From: Diphasiastrum complanatum
Taxonomy: Eukaryota > Streptophyta > Lycopodiopsida > Lycopodiales > Lycopodiaceae
Length of the DNA: 64,000 nt
NCBI GenBank assembly: GCA_029204225.1
Contig: MU831563.1
Location: 62,001 to 126,000 of the forward strand
Direction of reading: 5' to 3'
Part shown: positions 21,622 to 63,949 of the stretch, piece after piece
Position numbering within the stretch: the first letter of the stretch is position 1
Layout of the letters: each line of letters starts with the position of its first letter
Notes under the pieces: generated by a model
What the model saw: the letters and a program-made list of their open reading frames with translations, nothing else
Told to the model about the DNA's origin: nothing
Databases searched by the model: none
Program-made: the position numbers and the translations under genes

Positions 21622-22256
21622 TGTGAAGATTCAACTAGTTTCATCACATTTTGCAATATTTCCATATTTGGCATATTGAGGCCAAAACTTGTTTTAGACT
21701 TAGAGGTTGACTTTTCAAAGTTCATTAGTCTAAATTTCATTTGAATAAACACTTTCTGAAAGTGTGGGAAAGATGTAGATTCAATTTGAGTAAGTTGGGT
21801 ACATTGAATCTAGACCCAAAATTGGTAGGGTTAGCATTTTGGTGGGAAAGCCAAGTGGCCAAATAGGGTTTGAACCTGTTATAAAAGGATGTAACTCGTG
21901 GAGAGAGTCATCTTCTCTCTTCTCTATCTCATTTCATGCTTATACATGGTCCTCTTGGGTTCTACTATCCATTGGTGCACTATCTTGGTGATTGCTTGCA
22001 ATTCTATGTGTAGAATGATCTATATTTGCTATTTTTGGATCCACACGTGTGAAATACAGTAGCTTGCTGGTTTTGTACAGACAGCAACAGTACATAATCA
22101 TTTCATTCAAGTTTGATCAAGTTCTATTAGTGTTTGCATCTCAAATTGTGTGTAGATGCTGATTTTTTCTACATTGGTGAAATTGGTAGTGTATTTCTCT
22201 TTCTAACCAAAGATCATTCAAGTAGATTGGATCTTAAGGATTTGAGATCTTTCACA
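21622..22256 (+). repeat. 5' LTR of element B
   Basis: 635 bp, TGTGAAGATTC ... GATCTTTCACA. TATAAAAG at 21880-21887 is a likely promoter TATA box. CACACGTGTG at 22042-22051 lies downstream of it, in the presumed transcribed part. Compared with the 3' LTR it lacks about 16 bp near 21770 and shows several substitutions. Confidence 0.93.
21880..21887 (+). promoter_or_regulatory. TATA box of the B-family LTR
   Basis: TATAAAAG is conserved at the same place in all four plus-strand copies of this LTR (also 33475, 43175, 44350), although surrounding sequence has diverged. It is followed about 20 bp later by a CT-rich stretch. Position and conservation fit a Pol II core promoter at the U3/R boundary. 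Confidence 0.65.
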
Positions 22257-23093: not shown

Positions 23094-24252
23094 TGGTTGG
23101 CTTCTATTTACAGTAAGTATTCCATTTTTGGTGATATTTGGATGTTTGATCAAGTTCTAGCATGATTTTGCATTGCTTTGTTGATCAAATCTTACTAACC
23201 TTTGTTTGTGAGTTGAACTTGTGAATCAAAAGCATATTTCAGGTCTATTGAAGATCAGAGGCTGAAAAGAAACTATTTTGGATCAGATCATAACACCTAA
23301 TCATTTGTGATTGTGAGGCTTGTGCATATTCAATACTAACAATGTTCTTTTCAATCCTATTGTTGACAATCTCCATTCTTGGATGAACACTCTCCTTAAG
23401 TGGATGAAACTTCTCCTTAAGTGGATGACAAATGCTCTTTTGAGTGAGTTGTAATTCTCCTAAAGGCTGAGCAAAGCTCCCATTTGGATGAAAGATCCCC
23501 TTTTTTGGGTGAACATATTGTAAGCTCCATTGTGAAGAGCATATTGTAAAGATTGTCATCAATTTTGGCATAATTTTTGGTGTACTTTGTTGAGCATGTA
23601 AGTAACTCTCCTTATGTAATTTGATTGGAGCATTTGCTGGAAGGTGTTAACCATTATGCAAGTGTGTTTTCAGGTTCTTAACAGGTTGAGGAACATTCTC
23701 ATGTGAAGTGATCTTAGATCTACATCTAAACACCAAGATTTGACAAGATAGTGAAGCTAGTCTTGTGATTCACTAAGTGTGCTCATTCATTCACCTCTAA
23801 ATCTTGTATTTATCACTTGCTGGAGTTTATAAACTTTTAGAAGTGTGGTTTACATGTGGTTTTACAGGTTGAATCAATATCTTAGTGTGTTGATCATATG
23901 TTGATCAAGTTTGTTCATTACTAGGTAATCTTGGCATCCTAGTTTTGGGTATTTTCTAAGAATGCAAGTAACTCTTCACACCATAACTTGATTTGGTCAC
24001 TTGCTGGAAAGTTTGAGAGCTTAAGCAAGAGTGTGTTCAGGTTGGTTTGATTTTGTAATCCATTCTTAGTGTGTGCAAAGTGTTGCATGTGTTTCAATCT
24101 TCCTTTCTATGCTTGGAAACCATCTAGGTTCAAGATAGAAGTGTTTTAGGGTCCTAAATCTTCATAGATCTCTTTATCTATCATTTGTTGAGAGAAAAGT
24201 GAGTGCTAAGTGCTTTAGGACAGAACCTAAAAGTTGAAGAAACATTAGAATC
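23094..24252 (+). other. Untranslated leader of element A
   Basis: About 1.16 kb between primer-binding site and gag start with no sense-strand open frame of note. It holds an imperfect repeat of a GGATGAA..CTCCTTAAGT unit near 23385-23430. Confidence 0.7.
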
Positions 24253-27200
24253 ATGGCTTCCAATGGTGGGATCATGCTAGAGTCTAGTGAAAGGTTGAGT
24301 TCATCAAACTACTCTACTTGGAAAGTGAGGATGGAGTCCTTACTTGAGTTGAATGAACTCATGGACATAGTTGCAGAAATTGAAGAGAGACCTCTCACAC
24401 TTCAAGAGCAACAAAGGTTTGATAAGAAGGCCAAAAGGGCTCTTCATATCATTAAAATGAATGTTACAAATGAACTTCTCAAGGAAGTTGGAAAGTGTCA
24501 AAGTGCAAGTGAGGCATGGAATGCCTTAAAGAAGCTCTTTGAATCAAAGTCCACATCTAGGGTATTGACCCTAAGGAGACAAATATTTTCTAGTAGGCAA
24601 AGAGAGGGTGAAAGTGCTCATGCATTTATCTTGAGAGTTAAGTCCCTAAGTGATGATTTAGCATGCATTGATGAGAACATAAAAGATGGTGAAATAGTCC
24701 AAGTTATGTTGAATGGTTTGCTAAATGAACATGCTAACCTTGTGCAAAGTTTTGCCATTCAAAGAGTCTTGCCAAGTGTGGTTGACTTGCAAGAAATCTT
24801 ATTGGCTGAAGAACATAGGTTGCAATCAAAGCTTGATGGTGCATCCTTGCAAGGTGGAGGTGAAGAGGCTTTCTTCACAAAAGGCAAATTCAAGGGCAAA
24901 GGTAAAGGCAAAGGGAAATGGTCCAAAGGTGGTAACTTTGATCATGATGATCACTCTTCCTCTTCCTCTTCTACTAAGAACAATAAGTCAAAGTTCAAGT
25001 GCTTTTATTGTGGGATAAAAGGTCATTTTGCAAATGAATGTTATAAGAAGAAAAGAGAGCAAGGAGAGAGGCAAGGAAATCTTACAATAGATGAGGAAGA
25101 ACATAACACATGTGAATCACTTGTTATGACTTCAAGTTTGTTAGCCAACATAGATGATAATGATCCTTGGTGGATTGATAGTGGAGCCTCATCTCACATG
25201 ACAAGACATAAGGAATACTTTACATCCTTATTGTCTTATGAGGGAGAAGGTAACATCATCTACACTGCAAATGATGGTCAATGTGACATCAAAGGCATAG
25301 GCACTATTCCTATTTCCCTTTCAACAAATAGGAAAGCAAATCTTGAAAATGTTTTGTACATTCCTTCAATCACTAAGAATTTGCTTAGTGTAAGTCAAAT
25401 GATTGACAAAGGACTTGATGTGGAGTTCATTGGAGATGCATGTTTGATAAGTAAATGTGGATCCTTGATTGCTCAAGGTAGGAGGCATGGTAAACTTTTC
25501 AAGCTTGATGCATGTGTGATCTCTAATCATGAAGGATGTATGGCTAGGGAGCAATTGACAAACCAAGAAGTTTGGCACAAGAGGTTGGGCCATCCCAACT
25601 TCAAATCTTTGGAGGTAATGGCAAAGAAAGAGCTTGTTCTTGGTCTCCCTAAAAGTCTTGTTGCAAACAATAGTGTTTGTGAACATTGTGCCTTGTCCAA
25701 ATCTCATAGACTTGCTTATTCTAGATCTACTTCTAGATCTAAAGAAGCTTTTCAACTTGTGCATTCTGATATTCATTCTTCTAGTACAACTAGCAATGGT
25801 GGGGCAAAGATGTATGCAACTTTCATTGATGACTTTAGTAGGTATACTTGGATCTATCTTCTTAAAAGTAAGGATGAAGTGTTTGCTGCATTTGTCAAGT
25901 TCAAGAATGAAATGGAAAACCAATTCAATACAAAGATCAAATGCTTAAGATCTGATAATGGAGGGGAATACACCTCAAATAGGTTCAAAGACTTTTGTAT
26001 AGCACATGGGATTAAGAGGGAGATGTCTAGTCCTAGGACTCCACAACAGAATGGAGTGGCCGAGAGGAAGAATAGAACCCTTTGTGAATGTGCCAAGGCA
26101 ATGAGACTACATGCTAATCTTGCTAAGTCTTTTTGGGGGGAAGCTTTAGCATGTGCTAACTATCTATGTAATAGATGGACAAGTGCTTCCTTGGATGGTA
26201 AAACTCCTCATGAGGTTCTTTATGGTAGAAGGCCGAGTGTCAAGCATTGTAGGATCTTTGGATGTACATGTTTTGTCAATATCACACTTGATGATAGAAC
26301 TAAAGAAGATCCTTCATCAAAGAAGGGTGTGTTTGTTGGCTATAGTGAAGTAAGCAAGGCTTACAAAGTGTACATTCCTTCTACAAAGAAAGTTGTCATA
26401 AGTAGGGATGTCATCTTTCATGAAGAGAATGTTTCCAATGTTGTTGATGTTGATGTTGATGTGCCTACTAATCATCATGATGTGCAAGATGTCTTGGATG
26501 AAGATGGAGATGCCACTCCAAAGCAAACTTCAAGGAAGACTCAAAGGCAAAGGGCTAAGCCATCAAGGCTAACCTATGATGAAAAAGGAAAGCAAGTGGT
26601 GGACAACTCTAACCTTGCTTTTCTTACCTCTTTTGATGAACCAACTTGTGTAGGTGAAGCAATTCAAAAGAAGGAATGGATCCAAGCCATGGATCATGAG
26701 CATCAAGCACTCATCAAAAGCAACACATGGAGGTTGGTAAAGCTTCCAAAGGACAAGAAGGCAATTGGTTGTAAGTGGATCTTCAAGATCAAGACAAATC
26801 AAGATGGATCAATCAACAAGTACAAGGCAAGGTTGGTGGCAAAGGGGTATGCTCAAGAATATGGTATTGACTATGATGAGACCTTTGCACCCGTGGCAAA
26901 GATGGTAACTATTCGAATCCTAATCTCTCTTGCAACTCTTTATGATTGGGATATGTGACAAATGGATGTTACTAATGCCTTCTTGAATGGTGATCTTGAA
27001 GAAGATATTTACATGGAGCAACCCGAGGGCTATGTTTCACATGATGAGCCTAATCATGTGTGCTATCTCCAAGAGAGTTTGTATGGGCTAAAGCAAGCAC
27101 CAAGGAGTTGGTATGCTAAGCTCAATTCCTTCTTACTTTCTCAAAACTTTGTTATGAGTGAGTATGATCATTCTCTCTACTTTAGATTGAATGAAAATGA

Positions 27201-28206
27201 TATCACTTTACTTTTGATCTATGTTGATGACATTATCTTAAGTGGTGGTAACAATCTAGATATAGATGAAATCAAGATGGCACTCAAAAGAGAGTTTGAA
27301 ACTCAAGATCTTGGTAAACTTCATTATATCTTAGGAATAGAGATTATTAGAACTTCTAAATCTACATTCATATGTCAAGAAAAATATGTTAACTCTATTC
27401 TAAAAAGGTTTCATATGGAAGATTGTAAAGTTGTTTCTACTCCTATGGAATCAAATGTAAAGCTAACTACAAGAAGTAATGAAAGATCCTTCAAGGACAT
27501 TACTCTCTATAGAAAGCTAATAGGATCTCTTATATGGTTAACCATCACAAGACCTGATCTAAGCTTTGTGGTTGGTAAACTAAGTCAATTTATGCAAGAT
27601 CCTAGTGAGGCTCATTGGAAGCTAGGAAAGAGAGTACTTAGATACATCTCGGGATCTAGAGATTTTGGCATCTTGTATGGAGGTACTACACCTAACCTTT
27701 GTGGATTTTCAGATTCAGATTTTGCAGGTGATCAAATGGATAGGAAGTCAACAAGTGCCTTTGCAATCTATCTTGGAGATGGAGTGGTCTCATGGCTATC
27801 AAAGAAGCAACCAACTATCTCTCTATCTTCCACCGAAGCCGAGTACAAGGCATTAACAACATGCACCAAGGAGATTCTTTGGATCAAGAGGATGTTATTG
27901 GATCTTCACTTGCTGGAACCAGAGAAGACTCCAATCATACTTTGTGATAACCTTTCAGCCCAAAGCTTGGCAAGCAATCCTGTTTTTCATGCAAGGAGCA
28001 AGCACATTGAGATTGCTCACCATTTTGTGAGAGATCAAGTCATTGCCAAAGAGGTGGAGCTTCAACATGTCTCTTCAAAGGAGTGTGTGGCTGATATCTT
28101 CACCAAACCATTGGGAAAGGACCTATATTTAATGCATAGATCTAATCTTGGAATGTGCTCAAAGACTATGTTGAAACTAGCATCCAATGTTGAAGAGGGA
28201 GTGTGA
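24253..28206 (+). pseudogene. Ty1/copia gag-pol polyprotein of element A (one in-frame stop)
   Basis: A single frame starts at ATG 24253. Gag carries a CX2CX4HX4C zinc knuckle at residues 250-263. Protease has DSGAS (Asp 309). Integrase has the His/Cys zinc site (His 442 and 446, Cys near 477 and 480) and catalytic Asp 506, Asp 568 and Glu 604, with exactly 35 residues between the last two, as expected for DD35E. Reverse transcriptase starts near residue 812. A TGA at 26956-26958 interrupts it where relatives have Trp; the frame then stays open from 26962 to 28206 with YVDD at 27220-27231. RNase H (DSDFAG, TEAEY, DIFTKPL) ends the protein, and the stop codon overlaps the 3' LTR start. No frameshift was found. 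The polyprotein would make the virus-like particle and copy and integrate the element; this copy likely cannot without readthrough or help. Confidence 0.95.
28192..28201 (+). other. Polypurine tract of element A
   Basis: GAAGAGGGAG lies directly before the 3' LTR; identical to the tract of element B at 33191-33200. Confidence 0.85.
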
Positions 28207-29279: not shown

Positions 29280-32200
29280 ATGGCAACCTCAATTGGAGTC
29301 ATGTTGGAAGCCAATGATAGGCTTACCTCAAGTAACTATTCATTATGGAAAGTGAGGATGGAGTCACTTCTTGAGATGAATGATGTTTTGGATATTGTTG
29401 TAGGTTTGGAGGAGAGATCAGCAACACAACAAGATCAATTGAGGTATGACTAGAGGGCCAAGAAGGCTCTACACATGATAAAGATGAATGTTACCAATGA
29501 ACTTCTCAAGGAAGTTGGTAAGTGCACATCATCTTTGGAAGCTTGAAATTCATTGAAGAAGCTTTATGAATCCAAGTCTTGTTTGCAAAAGAATGAAGAA
29601 AGTCCAAGTACTTTTGTTTTGAGAATGAAAGCATTGAATGATGAGTTAGCTTGCATAGATGAAAGCATTAAGGAAGGAGAGCTTATTCAAGTGATTCTTA
29701 ATGGCTTGTTGGATGCTCATGCTAACATTGTTCAAAGTATTGCTATTCAAAAGACTTTGCCAAGTTTGATGGATCTTCAAAAGATCTTGATCAATGAGGA
29801 ATATAGGCTTCAAGCAAGAGGTGGATCTACATCGACACTTCAAGAGGATGCTATGTTCACAAAGGGCAAATTCAAGGGCAAAACCAAAAGCAAGTGGTCT
29901 AAAGGGCAAGATCAAGTGGATGCTTCTTCAAGTGGAAAAAAGAAGTATAGATCAAAGCCCAAGTGCTTCTATTGTGGCATCAAAGGACACTTTGCAAGTG
30001 AGTGCTACAAGAAGAAGAGAGATCAGGGAAACAAGCAAGGTAATCTTACTCTTGATGAGGATGGTTTGGATGTGCAAGATGCAAATGATGATGCTTTTGT
30101 GATGTCTTCATGTATGCTTGCTAATGATGGAGATCTAGATCCTTGGTGGATTGATAGTGGAGCAAGTTCACACATGACCTTTCACAAAGAATACTTCACT
30201 TCTTTGTTGGCATATGGAGATGACAAGAGGGTGATCTACACGGCCAATGCTGGTGAGTGTGCAATCAAAGGGATTGGCACAATTCCTATTTCTCTCTCTA
30301 CAAATAGGAATGTTCATTTGGAGGATGTCTTGTTTATTCCATCTATTACCAAGAATTTGCTTAGTGTGAGTCAAATGCTAAGTAAGGGCCTCAAGGTGGA
30401 GTTTGATGGAGATGCTTGTTTGATCAAAAGGAAGGATGTCTTGATTGGAAAAGGCAAAAGACAAGGGAAGTTGTTCAAACTTGATGCTTGTGTTATTGCT
30501 AACCAAGTTGGATGTGTTTCAAGGGAGCAAATTTCTATTCAAGAGGTTTGGCACAAAAGGATGGGACACCTCAACTTCAAGTCATTGGAGGTAATGGCAA
30601 GGAAGAAGGTTGTGATTGGTCCTCCAAGTTTCTTAAGTAATGACAAACATGTTTGTGAGTCTTGTGCTTTGTCTAAGTCACATAGACTACCTTATACTAG
30701 ATCTATTTCTAGATCTACAAAGCCTTTTCAACTTGTACATTCGGATATTCATGGATTTACTACAATTAGCAATAGTGGAGCTAAGATGTATGTAACATTC
30801 ATTGATGATTTTAGTAGATTTTATTGGATCTATCTACTAGAGAGCAAGGATGAAGTATATGATGTCTTTGTCAAGTTCAAGAATGCAAGGGAGAACCAAT
30901 TCTCCACAAAGATCAAGTGCTTGAGAGGTGACAATGGTGGTGAGTACATATCTAACAAGTTCAAGGCCTTTTGTGATGAGCATGGGATCAAGAGGGAGTA
31001 TACAACATCAAGGACTCCACAACAAAATGGAGTGGCTGAAAGGAGGAATAGGACTTTATGTGAAAGTGCTAAAGCTATGAGGTTAAGTGCTAATCTTGAC
31101 AAACCATTTTGGGATCAAGCTTTGTTGTGTGCCAATTTCTTGTGCAATAGGTGGCCGAGTGTTATTATGGATGGAAGGACACCTTTTGAGATGCTATTCA
31201 AGAGGAGGCCGAGTGTCAACTTTCTAAGAACCTTTGGATGCACATGCTATGTCAACATTACTCTTGATGATAGGGCCAAGGAGGATCCATCTTCAAAAAG
31301 AGGTATTTTTGTTGGATATAGTGAGGTGAGTAAAGCCTACAAGGTTTACATTCCTTCTACTAACAAAGTGATTGTTGGTAGAGATGTCATTTTTGATAAG
31401 GGAAACATTCCAAAGGTGTCTTCAAGCATGATTGATGGTAAAGTAGATGGATCTAACATTCTTGATGTTGATGAGAAGGATCCTACTTTGGATGGTGGTG
31501 ATGATGGACCTTCATCAAGTCAAAAGCCAAGGAGAACATCAAGAGAAAGACAAGTACTTTCAAGGCTCACATATGATCAAAAGGGTAAGCAAGTAGTTTC
31601 TGGAAATTATGTTGCTTTCCTAACCTCTTTGGATGAGCCTACAAGTGTAGATCAAGCAAGGAAAGAAGAGGAGTGGATCCAAACAATGGATCTTGAGTAT
31701 CAAGCTCTTATGAAGAATGGAACATGGAGATTGGTGGAGTTGCCTAAGGACAAGAAAGCTATTGGATGCAAATGGATCTTCAAGGTGAAGACAAACCAAG
31801 ATGGATCTATCAACAAGTACAAGTCAAGGTTAGTGACAAAAGGATATGCTCAACAACAAGGAATTGACTATGATGAGACCTTTTTTTTTTTTTTTTTTGC
31901 ACCGTGGCAAAGATGGTAAGCATTCGAGTCATCATTTCACTTGCTACACTTTATGGATGGGATCTATGGCAAATGGACATTTCAAATGCATTCTTGAATG
32001 GTGATCTTGAGGAGGAAGTATACATGGAGCAACCCGAGAGCTACATCTCATCAACAAAGTCAAATCATGTGTGTCTTCTACAAAAGAGTTTGTATGGCCT
32101 TAAGCAAGCACAAGGAGTTGGTATGCTAAGCTTAACACTTTTTTACTCTCTCAAGGCTTTGTTATGAGTGAGTATGATCATTCACTTTATTATAGGTTTG

Positions 32201-33200
32201 CTGGAAATGATGTTACCATCTTGCTAATCTATGTGGATGATATCATCTTGAGTGGTGGAGACAATCAAGATGTGGAGGATATCAAGAATGCTCTTAAGAA
32301 GGAGTTTGAGGTGCATGATCTTGGTAATTTGCATTACATTTAGGAATAGACGTCATTAGATCTTCTCAATCTACTTTCATTTGTCAAGAGAAGTATGCTA
32401 ACTCTATTCTAGAAAGATTTCATATGGTAGATGCAAAAGCTATTGATACACCTATGGAGTCTCATGTAAAGCTTACTATAAGAGGTAATGAAAGATCCTT
32501 CAAGGACATTACTCTCTATAGAAAGCTAGTTGGTTCTCTCATCTATCTAACCATTACTAGACCTGATCTAAGCTATTGTGTTGGAAGATTGAGTCAATTC
32601 ATGCAAGATCCTAGTGAGGAGCATTGGAAGCTAGGAAAGCGAGTTTTGAGGTACTCATTGGAACTCGAGATTTTGGCATATTGTATGAGGGATCATCACC
32701 TAATCTTTTTGGATTTTCAGATTCGGACTATGCTGGAGATATAATGGATAGGAAATCCATTAGTTCTTATTGTATTTTCATAGGTGATGGAGCTATATCA
32801 TGGATGTCAAAGAAACAAGCCACTATCTCATTGTCATCTAGTGAGGCCGAGTACAAAGCTCTTACACATTGCACAAAGGAGATGGTATGGATCAAAAGGA
32901 TGATCAAGGATCTTCACTTGCTGGATTTTTCGGAGAGCCCAATCATCTTTTGTGACAATCAATCAACCCAAAGAATGGCATCCAATCCTATCTTTCATGC
33001 TAGGAGCAAGCATATTGAGATATAATATCATTTTGTGAGGGAGCGAGTCATTGCAAAGGAGGTGGAGCTTCAACATGTGTCTTCAAGGGAATGTGTAGCT
33101 GATATCTTCACCAAAGCATTGGGAAAAGACTGGTTCATGAAGCATAGGACTTCACTTGGAGTATTATCAAAGTCTATGCTAAAACTAGTTGAAGAGGGAG
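29280..33200 (+). pseudogene. Ty1/copia gag-pol of element B (multiply broken)
   Basis: Gag starts at ATG 29280. Stops occur at 29451 (TAG) and 29544 (TGA); from 29547 the frame is open through the zinc knuckle (CFYCGIKGHFASEC, about 29968), protease (DSGAS, about 30150), integrase (GDNGGEY, NGVAERRN) and into reverse transcriptase. There an 18-T run (31881-31898) expands a spot where A has three T, and a missing base follows. Further single-base losses occur near 32110, 32340 and 32655, and a stop at 33021 lies in RNase H. YVDD is still encoded at 32230-32241. The protein is closely related to that of A throughout, so the two belong to one lineage with diverged LTRs. Confidence 0.92.
33191..33200 (+). 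other. Polypurine tract of element B
   Basis: GAAGAGGGAG immediately before the 3' LTR. Confidence 0.85.
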
Positions 33201-33851
33201 TGTGAAAGATTCAACTAGTTTCATCACATTTTGCAATATTTTCATATTTGGCATATTGAGGCCAAAACTTGTTTTAGACTTGGAGGTTGACTTTTCAAAG
33301 TTCATTAGTCTAAATTTCATTTAAATAAACACTTTTTGAAAGTGTGGAAAAGATAGAATGCAAGTTTGAGTAGATTCAATTTGAATAAGTTGGGTACATT
33401 GAATCTAGACCCAAAATTGGTAAGGTTAGCATTTTGGTGGGAAAGCCAAGTGGCCAAATAGGATTTGGAACTGCTATAAAAGGATGTAACTCGTGGAGAG
33501 AGTCATCTTCTCTCTTCTCTATCTCATTTCATGCTTATACATGGTTCTCTTGGGTTCTACTATCCATTGGTGCACTATCTTGGTGATTGCTTGCAATTCT
33601 ATGTGTAGAATGATCTATATTTGTTATTTTTGGATCCACATGTGTGAAACACAATAGCTTTCTGGTTTTGTACGGACAGCAACAGTACATAATCATTTCA
33701 TTCAAGTTTGATCAAGTTCTATTAGTGTTTTCATCTCAAATTGTGTGTAGATGCTGATTTTTTCTACATTGGTGAAATTGGTAGTGTATTTCTCTTTCTA
33801 ACCAAAGATCATTCAAGTAGATTGGATCTTAAGGATCTGAAATCTTTCACA
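33201..33851 (+). repeat. 3' LTR of element B
   Basis: 651 bp, TGTGAAAGATTC ... GAAATCTTTCACA. TATAAAAG lies at 33475. The palindrome seen in the 5' LTR has become CACATGTGTG (33637-33646), a C-to-T change at the CpG. TCTTG at 33852-33856 closes the insertion. Confidence 0.93.
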
Positions 33852-42903: not shown

Positions 42904-43612
<709 letters not shown>

Positions 43613-44078: not shown

Positions 44079-44723
44079 TGTGAGGAATTCAACTAGTTTA
44101 GTCTATTTTGGTCATATTTGTATATTTGGTAATTGAGGCCAATTTTCATATTAGACTTGGAGTTTGACTTTTCAAAGTTATATTAGTCTAAAAGTATTTG
44201 AATAAACCCTTTTTGAAAGTGTGGGAAATGTAGAAGTCAAGTTTGAGTAGATTCAAATTTGAATGTTGAGTACATTGAATCCAGTCAAAAAATAGTAGGG
44301 TTTTTCATTATAAAGGGAAACCAAATGGCAATTTAGGTTTTGGACCTGTTATAAAAGGATGTAACTCATGGAAAGAGGGATCACTCTCTCTCTATTATCT
44401 CATTCATGTTTATACATGGGTCTCTTGGGTTGTACTATTTATTGGTGCACAATACTTGTGATATTTTGTAATTCTATGTGTAGAATGATCATTAATTGTT
44501 ATTTTCAGACCCACACGTGTGAAATACAGTAGCTTACTATAATTTTATGGACAACACCATTATTTTACGTTTTGGCATGTTTGGTGAAGATCTATTAGAG
44601 TTTGCATCTTATTCTTAGAGTAGATACTGATTTTTCTACATTGTCAGGATTGGTGATATGTTGTCTTTTTAACCCAAGATCATTTTATGGATTTAGATCT
44701 TTATTGATCTGAAATCTTTCACA
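44079..44723 (+). repeat. Solo LTR of the B family
   Basis: Starts TGTGAGGAATTC and ends CTGAAATCTTTCACA, 645 bp. TATAAAAG is at 44350 and CACACGTGTG at 44512-44521. No primer-binding site follows and no internal sequence of B is attached. Flanks AACTT and AAATT differ by one base and may be a decayed target duplication. Solo LTRs arise by recombination between the two LTRs of an element. Confidence 0.8.
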
Positions 44724-44729
44724 AAATTT

Positions 44730-45640: not shown

Positions 45641-47411
45641 TTTGAATACCTCGTGCCCCGCACTAGGATTGGCATATGAAATCCTCTAAATTAGGGACAT
45701 TTACTCGAACTGATGGAATATTGTTTCCATTTGAATCCTTGTGAGCACTTACCCTCAAACACTATTGGTATACTTGGGTTATTTTACAAACTCCAAATCC
45801 TCAACATCATCAGACGTATGCTTGGACTTTTCGACCTGAATGAAAGTTGTCATATACTTGAATAAACTAGGTCAGAAATCTGTAAATTTTTACTCTGGAC
45901 TATATTCCAGACTATGGAAAAATGAGAATTATGCTAACATTTCCTCGTCAAGGATTCTAATAATTGTTGCTAAAAACAAAATTTCAAGTACTGTATTCTT
46001 GGTTCATATCTGATAAACCATGCTGGCCTATGTTTGATAGACAATTTTGCTTTCCAACCAATAAGCTCGGCTACTACTGTGATTCTCACAATTAGCCCTA
46101 ATCTTACATTGACAATTGAGGTTAAGCACTACAATGCTTTTCTATCTCAAGAGTACAAATGAATGAAAAAAGAGTTTCTACTGATTGATCTCCGTTCCCT
46201 TCTCCTTAAGAAGATTTTTCATCCTTGGCAAATCTTTAGACTAGCAGCTCTACGTATGAGAGTCTGAACTGTATCTGATATCTGATCATATTCACATGAA
46301 TAAGATAATATTCAATCTTTTATGCTCATTGGTTCTTCAAGTAAATCAGTGTCCCACACCATCGACTTATATTCTTTCAGTACTAGTGAACCAACAATGA
46401 CTAGATAATCTCATGATAACACTTACAGGTCAAAGTCCCATACCATCGATTTGGCTGATAACACAATAGTGATTGGTCTTATCATTTTGAGTGCATGCTA
46501 ATTCCATCTAGAGAAGTGACATGACTCATAGTTATCTTATTTGTTGTTAGACAACAAGCTTAAATTATTAAAGATTTGGGTTATTGCCAAAGTACGACCT
46601 TAGACACAACCATGAGAATCATTTGAGTTGTCAATGTAGCTCACAATGTCTTCTTTTAAAGGGTTATGGTGCTAAATTTCAACAAAACACCATGGACAAT
46701 AACATACAAGTGTTTGATTCTAATGATGTCACCTGATGGTGATTGAAGGCTACTAAAAAGTGAATAAAATCCAGCTTTTTATTCCTGAGGAAGAAGTGCA
46801 AGCACAACCACCACTAAAGCCTGAAAAAAAATTGCTCCAATTCAATTGAAGATTAGAGTATGGATTGCATCTATAGTTAGTGATTAGCTTACATATTTTA
46901 TTCAGTGATGATCCACTTGCTATGAACGATCCACAAGTTTGATATAGTACTTTGGGTTTTTGGCAAATATTGTTGATTGGGATACCTTTTGTCACCATCT
47001 TTTTCCACAAGCAGATATTATCAAAGCTACAAAGGCTAAAAGTTGTTTGGTGGTACAAAAAAAGAATCCATTTTTCATTGTACCTTTTGGTAGTACATTT
47101 CACTTTTTGGGGATTTGGGAGGGAGCTTGATAGATGCTACCCATGAGTTAATGCAATGAAGGCATCCCTAGTAATGAGGGGCTCACATAGTCTCTTCAAC
47201 TCTAGTGTACCCACTTTAGAATGTTAAACAATAAACCTTTTTTGAGTGCATTTCTAAAAAGGTAGTGTCCTTGATAGTCCATGTTGTACCACCAAACCAT
47301 GCTTTTAGCCCAAAACAAAAAGTGCCTTTATCCTTTGATTGATGATACCACTATAAAAATCACCTTGTGAAGATCCTTAATCTTGTTGAAAATGCCAAAA
47401 GGAGGGCTATT
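45641..47411. other. Unassigned, probably old transposon debris
   Basis: Continues from the gypsy integrase relic. An open frame at 46753-47103 (minus, 116 codons) shows no domain I recognise. Around 47230-47400 the minus strand reads loosely like the end of a LINE-type protein, too weak to call. Confidence 0.3.
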
Positions 47412-61640: not shown

Positions 61641-62325
<685 letters not shown>

Positions 62326-62479
62326 CCACCAACCATACCCATAGTTAGTGAATTTTTCAGGGGGCAGCTAGCTCCCCCCTAAGAAAAGCTAATTGCCCAC
62401 CATAAGAGTGTCAAAATCCGTAGGCAAGTCAAATAATAGTCTATGAAAAGTTTTGCATGCCAACAATTTGTTTATAATC

Positions 62480-63150
62480 AAACATAATTTGTCTCTCAAA
62501 AGCCATTCTTCTGAAAAGCATCAATAAGCATCCTAACTTCTTTTAGAAACATTTGTGGTTTATTACAACAATATATAATGACAATAACCTGAGAGATGAC
62601 GATCTTATAAGAATTATAGACATGTCTATTAGAGGCCAAATGTATATACTATAGGAAACGGAAAGGTAAGTCCCTTCTGTTGTCATATTTGGAAAGGTGT
62701 GTAGAACCAGTCATTGGGTCAAGAGTAATAGTAATATTTAAGAAGTTTGCCGAATCACTTATAGTATTGCTTTCATCTATCTCAAGATATTCCGAAGGAT
62801 AAATCCAAAAAGGATTATTTGGAGTTCTCAGTTGGGTTTTGTCTAAAAAGCGTCCGACTAGAGGGTTATTGATAAATCATATATCTGAAAGAATATTTAA
62901 AATCATTCATAAATTTTACTTGCCATAACCTTGCAAGCCTTTTAATAAACTGCATTTCAAAATAAGAGAGGTACCAATTACACCACATCGGTGAGCATGA
63001 AAAACCCATGGGTATCCCACGAATTTGTCTCCAAGCATGATTACCAAGTCTGACTATGCAGTTATCTATTAGAAAAGAATTCCATGTACATGTAGTATCC
63101 TTGTCAATAGTGTTCCATTCCTCAAAAAACTTCTTTCCCAAGACCATTTA
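62480..63150 (-). pseudogene. Penelope-like element reverse transcriptase relic
   Basis: The minus strand (63147-62866) encodes a stretch with RQIRGIPMGFSCSPMWCN, the reverse-transcriptase block that in Penelope-like elements reads GIPMG followed by a small-residue/Pro motif. FEMQFIKRLARL and FKYSFRY follow. The catalytic aspartate pair should come next, but a small frameshifting deletion near 62880 removes one. In the following frame similarity continues with NNPLVGRFLDKTQ, NPFWIYPSEYLEI, FLNITI and a KYDNRRDLPF block to about 62480, with one stop. This is neither copia, gypsy nor LINE in pattern. The GIY-YIG endonuclease of canonical Penelope elements was not found. I judge the family from the motif series by eye; a LINE or group II-like origin is less likely. 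Confidence 0.65.
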
Positions 63151-63199
63151 AAATCTTTGGTTCCCGGTATCCACTATGAAGAATTGCCAAAAATTGGCA

Positions 63200-63705: not shown

Positions 63706-63939
63706 TGTGAAGAATTTTAGATCATTCAAGATCCAATCCATGTCCCAAATCTTTGGTTACAATAAGGAGCAAACCAACAATCCTGCCAATGTAGAAAACT
63801 CAGCATCTACATACAAAATGAGATGCAAACTCTTAGAGATACTGATCAAAACATAAAATATGTTTGATGTCCGTACAATTACAATACCCTACTGTATTTC
63901 ACATGTGTGGAACCAAAAATAGCAAAATATGAGCATTCT
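63706..63939 (-). repeat. Inverted fragment of a B-family LTR
   Basis: Plus reading starts TGTGAAGAATTTTAGATC and runs through GATCATTCAAGATCCAATCC, matching the reverse complement of the last ~230 bp of the B LTR, with CACATGTGTG at 63900. It is cut at about 63939, next to a gag fragment in the opposite orientation. Confidence 0.7.
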
Positions 63940-63949
63940 ACACACTCAT

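Follow-up and report, generated by a model that had tools for sequence, protein, structure and literature searches.

Penelope-like elements (PLEs) include the endonuclease-deficient types Athena and Coprina as well as Naiad and Chlamys, which carry an N-terminal GIY-YIG domain and insert in (CA)n microsatellites, and a hammerhead ribozyme is common in PLEs but not obligatory. Published work presents endonuclease-less (EN-less) PLEs as mobile elements closely related to telomerase (PMC3846280), includes members from Selaginella, Pinus and Picea (PMC9033089), and describes them as telomere-associated in Selaginella (PMC12477314). They are portrayed as restricted for the most part to chromosome ends because an exposed 3' end is needed, and may prime at deprotected telomeres or double-strand breaks (PMC3846280). 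In the terminons, Athena-based giants of rotifers, a simple-repeat 3' overhang, to which the RNA 3' end is complementary, acts as the primer, and units form chains (PMC12477314). Tandem or partially tandem units with pseudo-LTRs are given as the PLE organization (PMC11167929, PMC3846280). Some HERO families and Togen are LINEs that insert in microsatellites, (TG)n in the case of Togen (PMC4640811).

The window analyzed here, a 64,000-nucleotide stretch of the Diphasiastrum complanatum genome, contains a reverse transcriptase (RT) relic that we take, with a probability of about 0.6, to be a 5'-truncated dead copy of an EN-deficient PLE whose RNA would end in (CU)4 and prime on (GA)n microsatellites. 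The data that support this reading concern RT identity, tandem pseudo-LTRs, variable 5' truncation, the lack of a detectable EN, long CT tracts at 3' ends, spread along the chromosomes, and a target repeat seen both filled and empty. The family resembles EN-deficient PLEs in having an RT without GIY-YIG, in its 5' truncation and in its occurrence in vascular plants (PMC9033089, PMC3846280, PMC12477314). It departs from their confinement to chromosome ends, since its 42 and 81 mapped ends show no contig-end bias and the ends that were read lie in (CT)n rather than in telomeric repeats. As proposed for this family, pairing of an RNA 3' end with a simple-repeat primer and the chaining of units recall the terminons, but the repeat is CT and not telomeric, no hammerhead is shared among copies, and the element measures ~4.9-7.2 kb against more than 40 kb for terminons. 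Dryad and other canonical conifer PLEs share the PLE class and partial tandems, but carry a GIY-YIG EN, which was not detected in this family; the same domain separates it from Naiad and Chlamys, which are alike in microsatellite insertion. HERO and Togen LINEs are alike in that respect too, but encode a restriction-like endonuclease. No description of EN-less PLEs at CT microsatellites was found in the literature searched, a weak negative given its partial coverage. While EN-less plant PLEs and microsatellite targeting are already known, what is new is an EN-less family with 3' ends in long (CT)n, no clustering at chromosome ends, and a target repeat that also occurs unoccupied with its own CT.

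The relic and its family

The RT relic lies on the minus strand at window positions 63170-62389, with frame changes near 63150, 62870 and 62510, and is interrupted by a TAG stop at 62649-62651. Its parts and their surroundings are the following.

62866-63170, minus strand: RT palm fragment, with the end of the motif A/B spacer, motif B (GIPMGFSCSP) and the start of motif C (FRY)
62496-62876, minus strand: RT motif C and thumb fragment, NNPFWIYPSEYLEI...FLNITITLDP...LSKYDNRRDLPF...ASNRHVYNSYK, frameshifted relative to the palm near 62870
62389-62520, minus strand: C-terminus of the RT, read in a different frame, RDKLCLIINKLLACKTFHRLLFDLPTDFDTLMVGN and stop; same end in copy L023, matched by eye
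62332-62425, minus strand: conserved unit I 3' hairpin region, GGGCAATTAGC...AGCTAGCTGCCC and TCACTAAC...GGTTGGTGG
62192-62323, minus strand: microsatellite at the 3' end of the RT unit, (CT)49 then (CA)17 in minus-strand reading
62160-62190, minus strand: head-like ATGTATGGTACCTAATTAC, resembling by eye the unit II head ATGAATGGTACC of other copies

A 93-residue frame (63147-62866) holds GIPMGFSCSP and FRY, while NPFWIYP and KYDNRRDLPF lie in a 75-residue frame (62876-62649), which goes on beyond the TAG for 50 residues to 62496. The C-terminus, RDKLCLIINKLLACKTF...LMVGN, is read in a further frame (62520-62389) that ends in a stop. All four peptides quoted in the original prediction are present in these minus-strand frames, and the RT relic does lie where it was placed, at 62480-63150, but that range is too narrow: the element runs from ~63170 to the tract at 62323-62192, which had been omitted. 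Homology of other copies to the relic begins at 63154-63173 in 19 of 21 loci (at 63128 in L015 and 63110 in L023), and on this alignment ~63154-63173 is taken as the probable 5' truncation point. Beyond the head-like stretch at 62160-62190, no more unit II homology was detected. Nucleotide identity to other copies is ~72-77% over longer alignments, matches to the thumb fragment have ~44-77% amino acid identity, and the palm piece alone stays below threshold against RVT_1 (E 0.0075). The relic is a dead, 5'-truncated member of a high-copy family.

A search of its own genome (assembly of 1.74 Gb, much smaller than a conifer genome, the window lying on contig C45) with the palm piece gave 150 scored matches out of 2765 first-look candidates, which places the relic far beyond chance. 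E-values ranged from 1.2e-60 to 1.5e-36; the best non-self match is 99% identical, and the others listed are 66-83% identical and occur on 21 of the 23 largest contigs and on many small ones. The near-identical copy, on C24, is probably allelic or a duplicated contig, since its flanks are also ~99% alike over ~6 kb. A genome search for copies and termini had been proposed with the original prediction, and it yielded, besides these 150 matches, unit I and unit II 3' ends mapped genome-wide. Sixteen copies, selected among the matches listed on the basis of long open frames or of similarity, were taken as 10-kb loci (L009-L024). No sense-strand open frame in them exceeds 433 residues, the longest among the 150 scored matches being 524, and a coding region of ~1,100 residues is suggested by L013 (by eye). 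Outside this genome, no relative was confirmed in IMG/VR (peptide patterns, motif pattern and alignment A1) or in GTDB contigs (motif), tblastn against phage records returned only two (E 0.9 and 7), and PMGFSCSP was absent from the literature in a text search.

A local concentration was observed on C3 at ~18.5-21.6 Mb (L014, L021), where 19 of the 150 scored copies lie within ~3.1 Mb. Beyond the RT, L014 and L021 remain ~95% alike; they have a different, rearranged N-terminus (MCPKRHKKQQVSNLKN...), and the cluster may be a locally amplified derivative, perhaps satellite-like or centromeric.

Pairwise and self comparison of the fuller copies gave a common order: a variably 5'-truncated upstream piece ending in TAAT and a short CT, ATGCATCC, the N-terminal region and RT, two hairpins, (CT)n, and unit II, a second module that ends ...GTTAAT(CT)n. 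Element size runs from ~4.9 kb (L013) to 7.2 kb (L020). Partial tandems, or pseudo-LTRs, were found in 6 of 16 loci (L009, L013, L016, L017, L019 and L020), the upstream unit being 5'-truncated at differing points and the junction of the same kind; variable 5' truncation is seen across copies, with later deletion possible for single ones. The CT/pyrimidine run directly before ATGCATCC at the tandem junction is 8 bp in the five loci found by script (L009, L013, L017, L019 and L020), and CT before the unit I head measures 16 bp in L043 and 10 bp in L052. Where a part is repeated, identity between its two copies is 93.1% in L013, 90.9% in L020 and 79.7% in L017, which suggests that the insertions are old. 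Across 41 sequences the 3' hairpins contain 22 predicted pairs, 8 of them with at least one double change that preserves the pair, and they are maintained in two subfamilies with different loops; the first hairpin is missing or lost in L086, L087 and L106. No hammerhead ribozyme was found by Rfam (gathering scores on the window and eight loci, E-value mode on six loci), a search that a degenerate motif could escape, and a core regular expression run on 16 loci matched in L015 alone.

CT tracts at the 3' ends and the target repeat

Unit II 3' ends were located at 47 places in the genome (reversed control, 0) with a search pattern that itself contained CT, so the count of tailed ends is conditioned on it. 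Forty of the 47 places were fetched, and removal of four tandem junctions and three duplicates left 33 ends, with CT tracts of 14-206 bp that reach at least 28 bp in 31 of 33 (29 of 31 if two near-identical pairs are counted once). At five of the 33 ends, (CA)n or (GC)n adjoins the CT on its far side, making a compound tract. The seven unfetched places include L017, with 77 bp of CT, and L020, with a 3' CT of ~11 bp; that of L013 is only 9-11 bp, and two junctions between one unit II and another have long tracts (83 bp in L048, 209 bp in L069). For unit I, a CT-free pattern located 103 ends (control, 0). Forty of the 100 listed were fetched, and at least 20 bp of uninterrupted CT follows in 36 of these 40, or 38 when interrupted tracts are included by eye; the near-duplicates L075 and L081 have no tract at this end. 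Since 33 of the 37 visible unit I ends run into a head with an ATG close to the tract (by eye, about half like ATGNATGGTACC and the others like ATGGGCTCTGTTAC), unit I usually has another module across the tract. The relic conforms, with (CT)49(CA)17 and then such a head. CT on both sides of the insert is shown for L020 alone (119 bp on the 5' side versus ~11 bp on the 3' side), and the 5' flank is not CT in L009, L010, L013, L016, L017 and L019, a result that loss of the 5' end, or its joining elsewhere, would lead one to expect.

Right after the CT tract of the element in L017 (7640-8089) lies a GC-rich stretch whose opposite strand matches 5.8S rRNA at barely over the gathering score, and an insertion in or near an rDNA fragment is possible there.

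In L020, L018 and L042 the element sits in the same dispersed repeat, of which the window holds an unoccupied copy.

43202-43307, plus strand: unoccupied site, a (CT)53 tract of 106 bp inside the dispersed target repeat, without the element; flanks matched by eye on the left and additionally by BLAST on the right

The repeat is also unoccupied at ~7860-7877 of L018, where it has its own imperfect CT tract of ~19 bp (flanks partly by eye). The tracts might instead be tails made by the element, and not the target, either because the RT slips on a short (CU)n end or because the microsatellite grows once insertion has taken place. Dinucleotide tracts expand readily, the tract sizes vary widely (14-206 bp), the element itself ends in short CT (8-16 bp at seven tandem junctions), and the tract after unit I is long though another module usually follows. 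However, native CT in the target repeat without the element, at both sites just given, argues for a landing site, as do the five compound tracts among 33 and the longer CT on the 5' side of L020, and we consider an element-made tail unlikely, albeit with an appreciable chance of being right.

Part of the L018/L020 target repeat is a ~240-bp dispersed repeat that occurs five times in the window (63706-63944, 43384-43589, 22007-22256, 33602-33851 and 44477-44724). The window further contains long copia-type open frames at 24238-28206 and 29547-33025, the first consisting of 906 and 415 amino acids split by one stop, with gag, integrase and RVT_2 domains, and, at 46718-46793 on the plus strand, a SNORD36 match barely over the gathering score (E 0.76).

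Positions were compared with a uniform distribution after C22, C24, C45 and small contigs had been dropped, which left 42 unit II ends out of 47 and 81 unit I ends out of the 100 listed, two sets that can share elements; of contigs C1-C23, 22 were seen at 42-102 Mb, with C22 inferred, and C24 is 10.9 Mb. Kolmogorov-Smirnov tests gave p=0.69 for unit II and p=0.18 for unit I. Within 1 Mb of a contig end lie 1 of 42 unit II ends (1.2 expected) and 1 of 81 unit I ends (2.5 expected). No TTTAGGG doublet occurs in 24 loci, and there is none near the relic. The mapped copies are spread along the chromosomes without bias to the ends.

Reverse transcriptase affinity and the search for an endonuclease

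Better copies present the RT motifs in the order LPYLLCTYKAHK..FRWITNA, ATDISKCYENIPLDG, RQIRGIPMGFSCSPLWCNWYL and FRYIDDICFINN, the last retained in several copies, and a thumb that reads FLNITISFDP..LSKYDKRRDLPF..LQYIHLASNRPVYNSYK. L011 passed Pfam RVT_1 (31.7 bits, cut-off 29.6), and the other seven of eight scanned pieces fell below. Profile A2 was run against six comparators, comprising TERT, group II and copia sequences. A TERT exon taken from this genome scored 12.4 bits and the other TERT exon -1.8; the Cupriavidus group II RT scored 0.1 and one copia frame -1.7, with no score reported for the second copia frame or for the group II RT of Rhodococcus. The TERT match is a short one centered on motif B, only ~3 bits higher than the 9.6 bits that unrelated frames of the loci reach; against these six comparators the RT appears to lean, weakly, toward the PLE-TERT branch. 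Profiles A1 and A2 matched no PDB sequence at E 10, single-sequence PDB matches reached only E 0.036-0.093 (Tetrahymena TERT, 8bgj), and two AlphaFold models had pLDDT values of 32 and 35.

A lineage outside the PLEs, LINE-like or another divergent RT with its tandem arrangement arisen by chance, would fit the observation that no Penelope-specific model matched in Pfam, NCBIfam, PADLOC or PHROGs. Pfam returns the generic RVT_1, and the best models elsewhere were a group II RT in NCBIfam (16.9 bits against a cut-off of 300), a CRISPR-associated RT in PADLOC (33.4 bits, above the RVT_1 score) and an RT family in PHROGs (26.2 bits); nor is a ribozyme common to the copies. Against such a lineage, TERT outscores group II and copia in the direct profile comparison, if weakly, Pfam finds no APE or restriction-like endonuclease in the pieces scanned, and the tandem and partial-tandem pseudo-LTRs match the PLE description (PMC11167929, PMC3846280), so that we judge it improbable. 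What stands of the predicted Penelope-like RT is an RT of the RVT_1 class with PLE-type partial tandems and no GIY-YIG detected, for which TERT is the nearest non-family RT of the six comparators, though weakly so. An RVT gene, following the description in PMC5718144, was also considered and rejected: the family is high-copy, and the stretch from motif 2 to motif A measures ~70 residues (by eye), with no large insertion.

In both the relic and L023, the RT frame continues for ~36 residues beyond KNGF, the final residues of the thumb, and stops directly before the conserved hairpins. Pfam found no GIY-YIG domain in the scanned pieces, the sense frames of L020 or the N-terminal part (half) of L013; the L020 result is a weak negative because the same scan missed even the RT in its broken frames. 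Searched by tblastn with a GIY-YIG protein, the 24 element loci and the window gave nothing significant (best E 9.4 and 0.85). The lack of a detectable GIY-YIG, first remarked for the relic, extends by both methods to the family copies scanned. Whether the relic was of an EN-deficient type or merely truncated had been left undecided, and this is settled in part: it is truncated N-terminally, while its C-terminal end is present and no EN comes after it. Because the RT frame stops directly before the 3' hairpins and no GIY-YIG was detected, the family looks endonuclease-deficient and not merely truncated, although its decayed copies leave a decayed EN possible.

Elsewhere in the genome GIY-YIG domains are abundant (471 candidates, 150 of them scored, with a top E of 1.4e-10), and no RT frame adjoins them in six loci of 3.2 kb each read by eye. 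As a part of the element the domain was rejected, not having been found in the element loci read. That GIY-YIG proteins encoded elsewhere nick CT/GA tracts on behalf of the EN-less element would suit their abundance and their lack of an adjoining RT frame, but no link was seen between their loci and the element, the GIY-YIG query being non-significant in the 24 loci and the window, and we regard such help in trans as very unlikely. Near the start of the chromosome-size contig C8, at ~0.6-2.4 Mb, lies a dense cluster of GIY-YIG open frames (ITLYKIASRVGKMVYIGQTTNL...; L025, L026, L029 and L030), with no adjoining RT frame in the loci read, and L027 and L028 have the same domain near another open frame common to both.

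A proposed route of insertion

In the reading that we favor, an EN-deficient PLE, the element would code for an N-terminal region of some length and for a telomerase-like RT, with the conserved 3' hairpins coming right after the RT end, and its RNA would end in about (CU)4 after this 3' structure. Where a nick or break in a GA/CT microsatellite exposes a 3' end of (GA)n, the (CU)4 end would anneal to it and the RT would extend it, a target-primed reaction without a nuclease of its own, analogous to the priming proposed for EN-less PLEs on telomeric overhangs or broken ends. Truncation at the 5' end would follow as in other target-primed elements, and priming in the CT tail of an earlier copy would give chains of unit, (CT)n and unit.

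More tentatively, and with odds that we place a little short of even, an EN-free, telomerase-related retroelement may have left the telomeres and colonized a whole plant genome by way of (GA)n/(CT)n landing sites, with the (CU)n RNA end as a template-like anchor and later copies priming on the tails of earlier ones. If this is true, a high-copy family at CT microsatellites would represent a second way of living without an endonuclease, and its retrotransposition would be tied to break-prone repeats. The link between telomerase and retroelements would then become testable with defined primers, (GA)n versus telomeric oligonucleotides.
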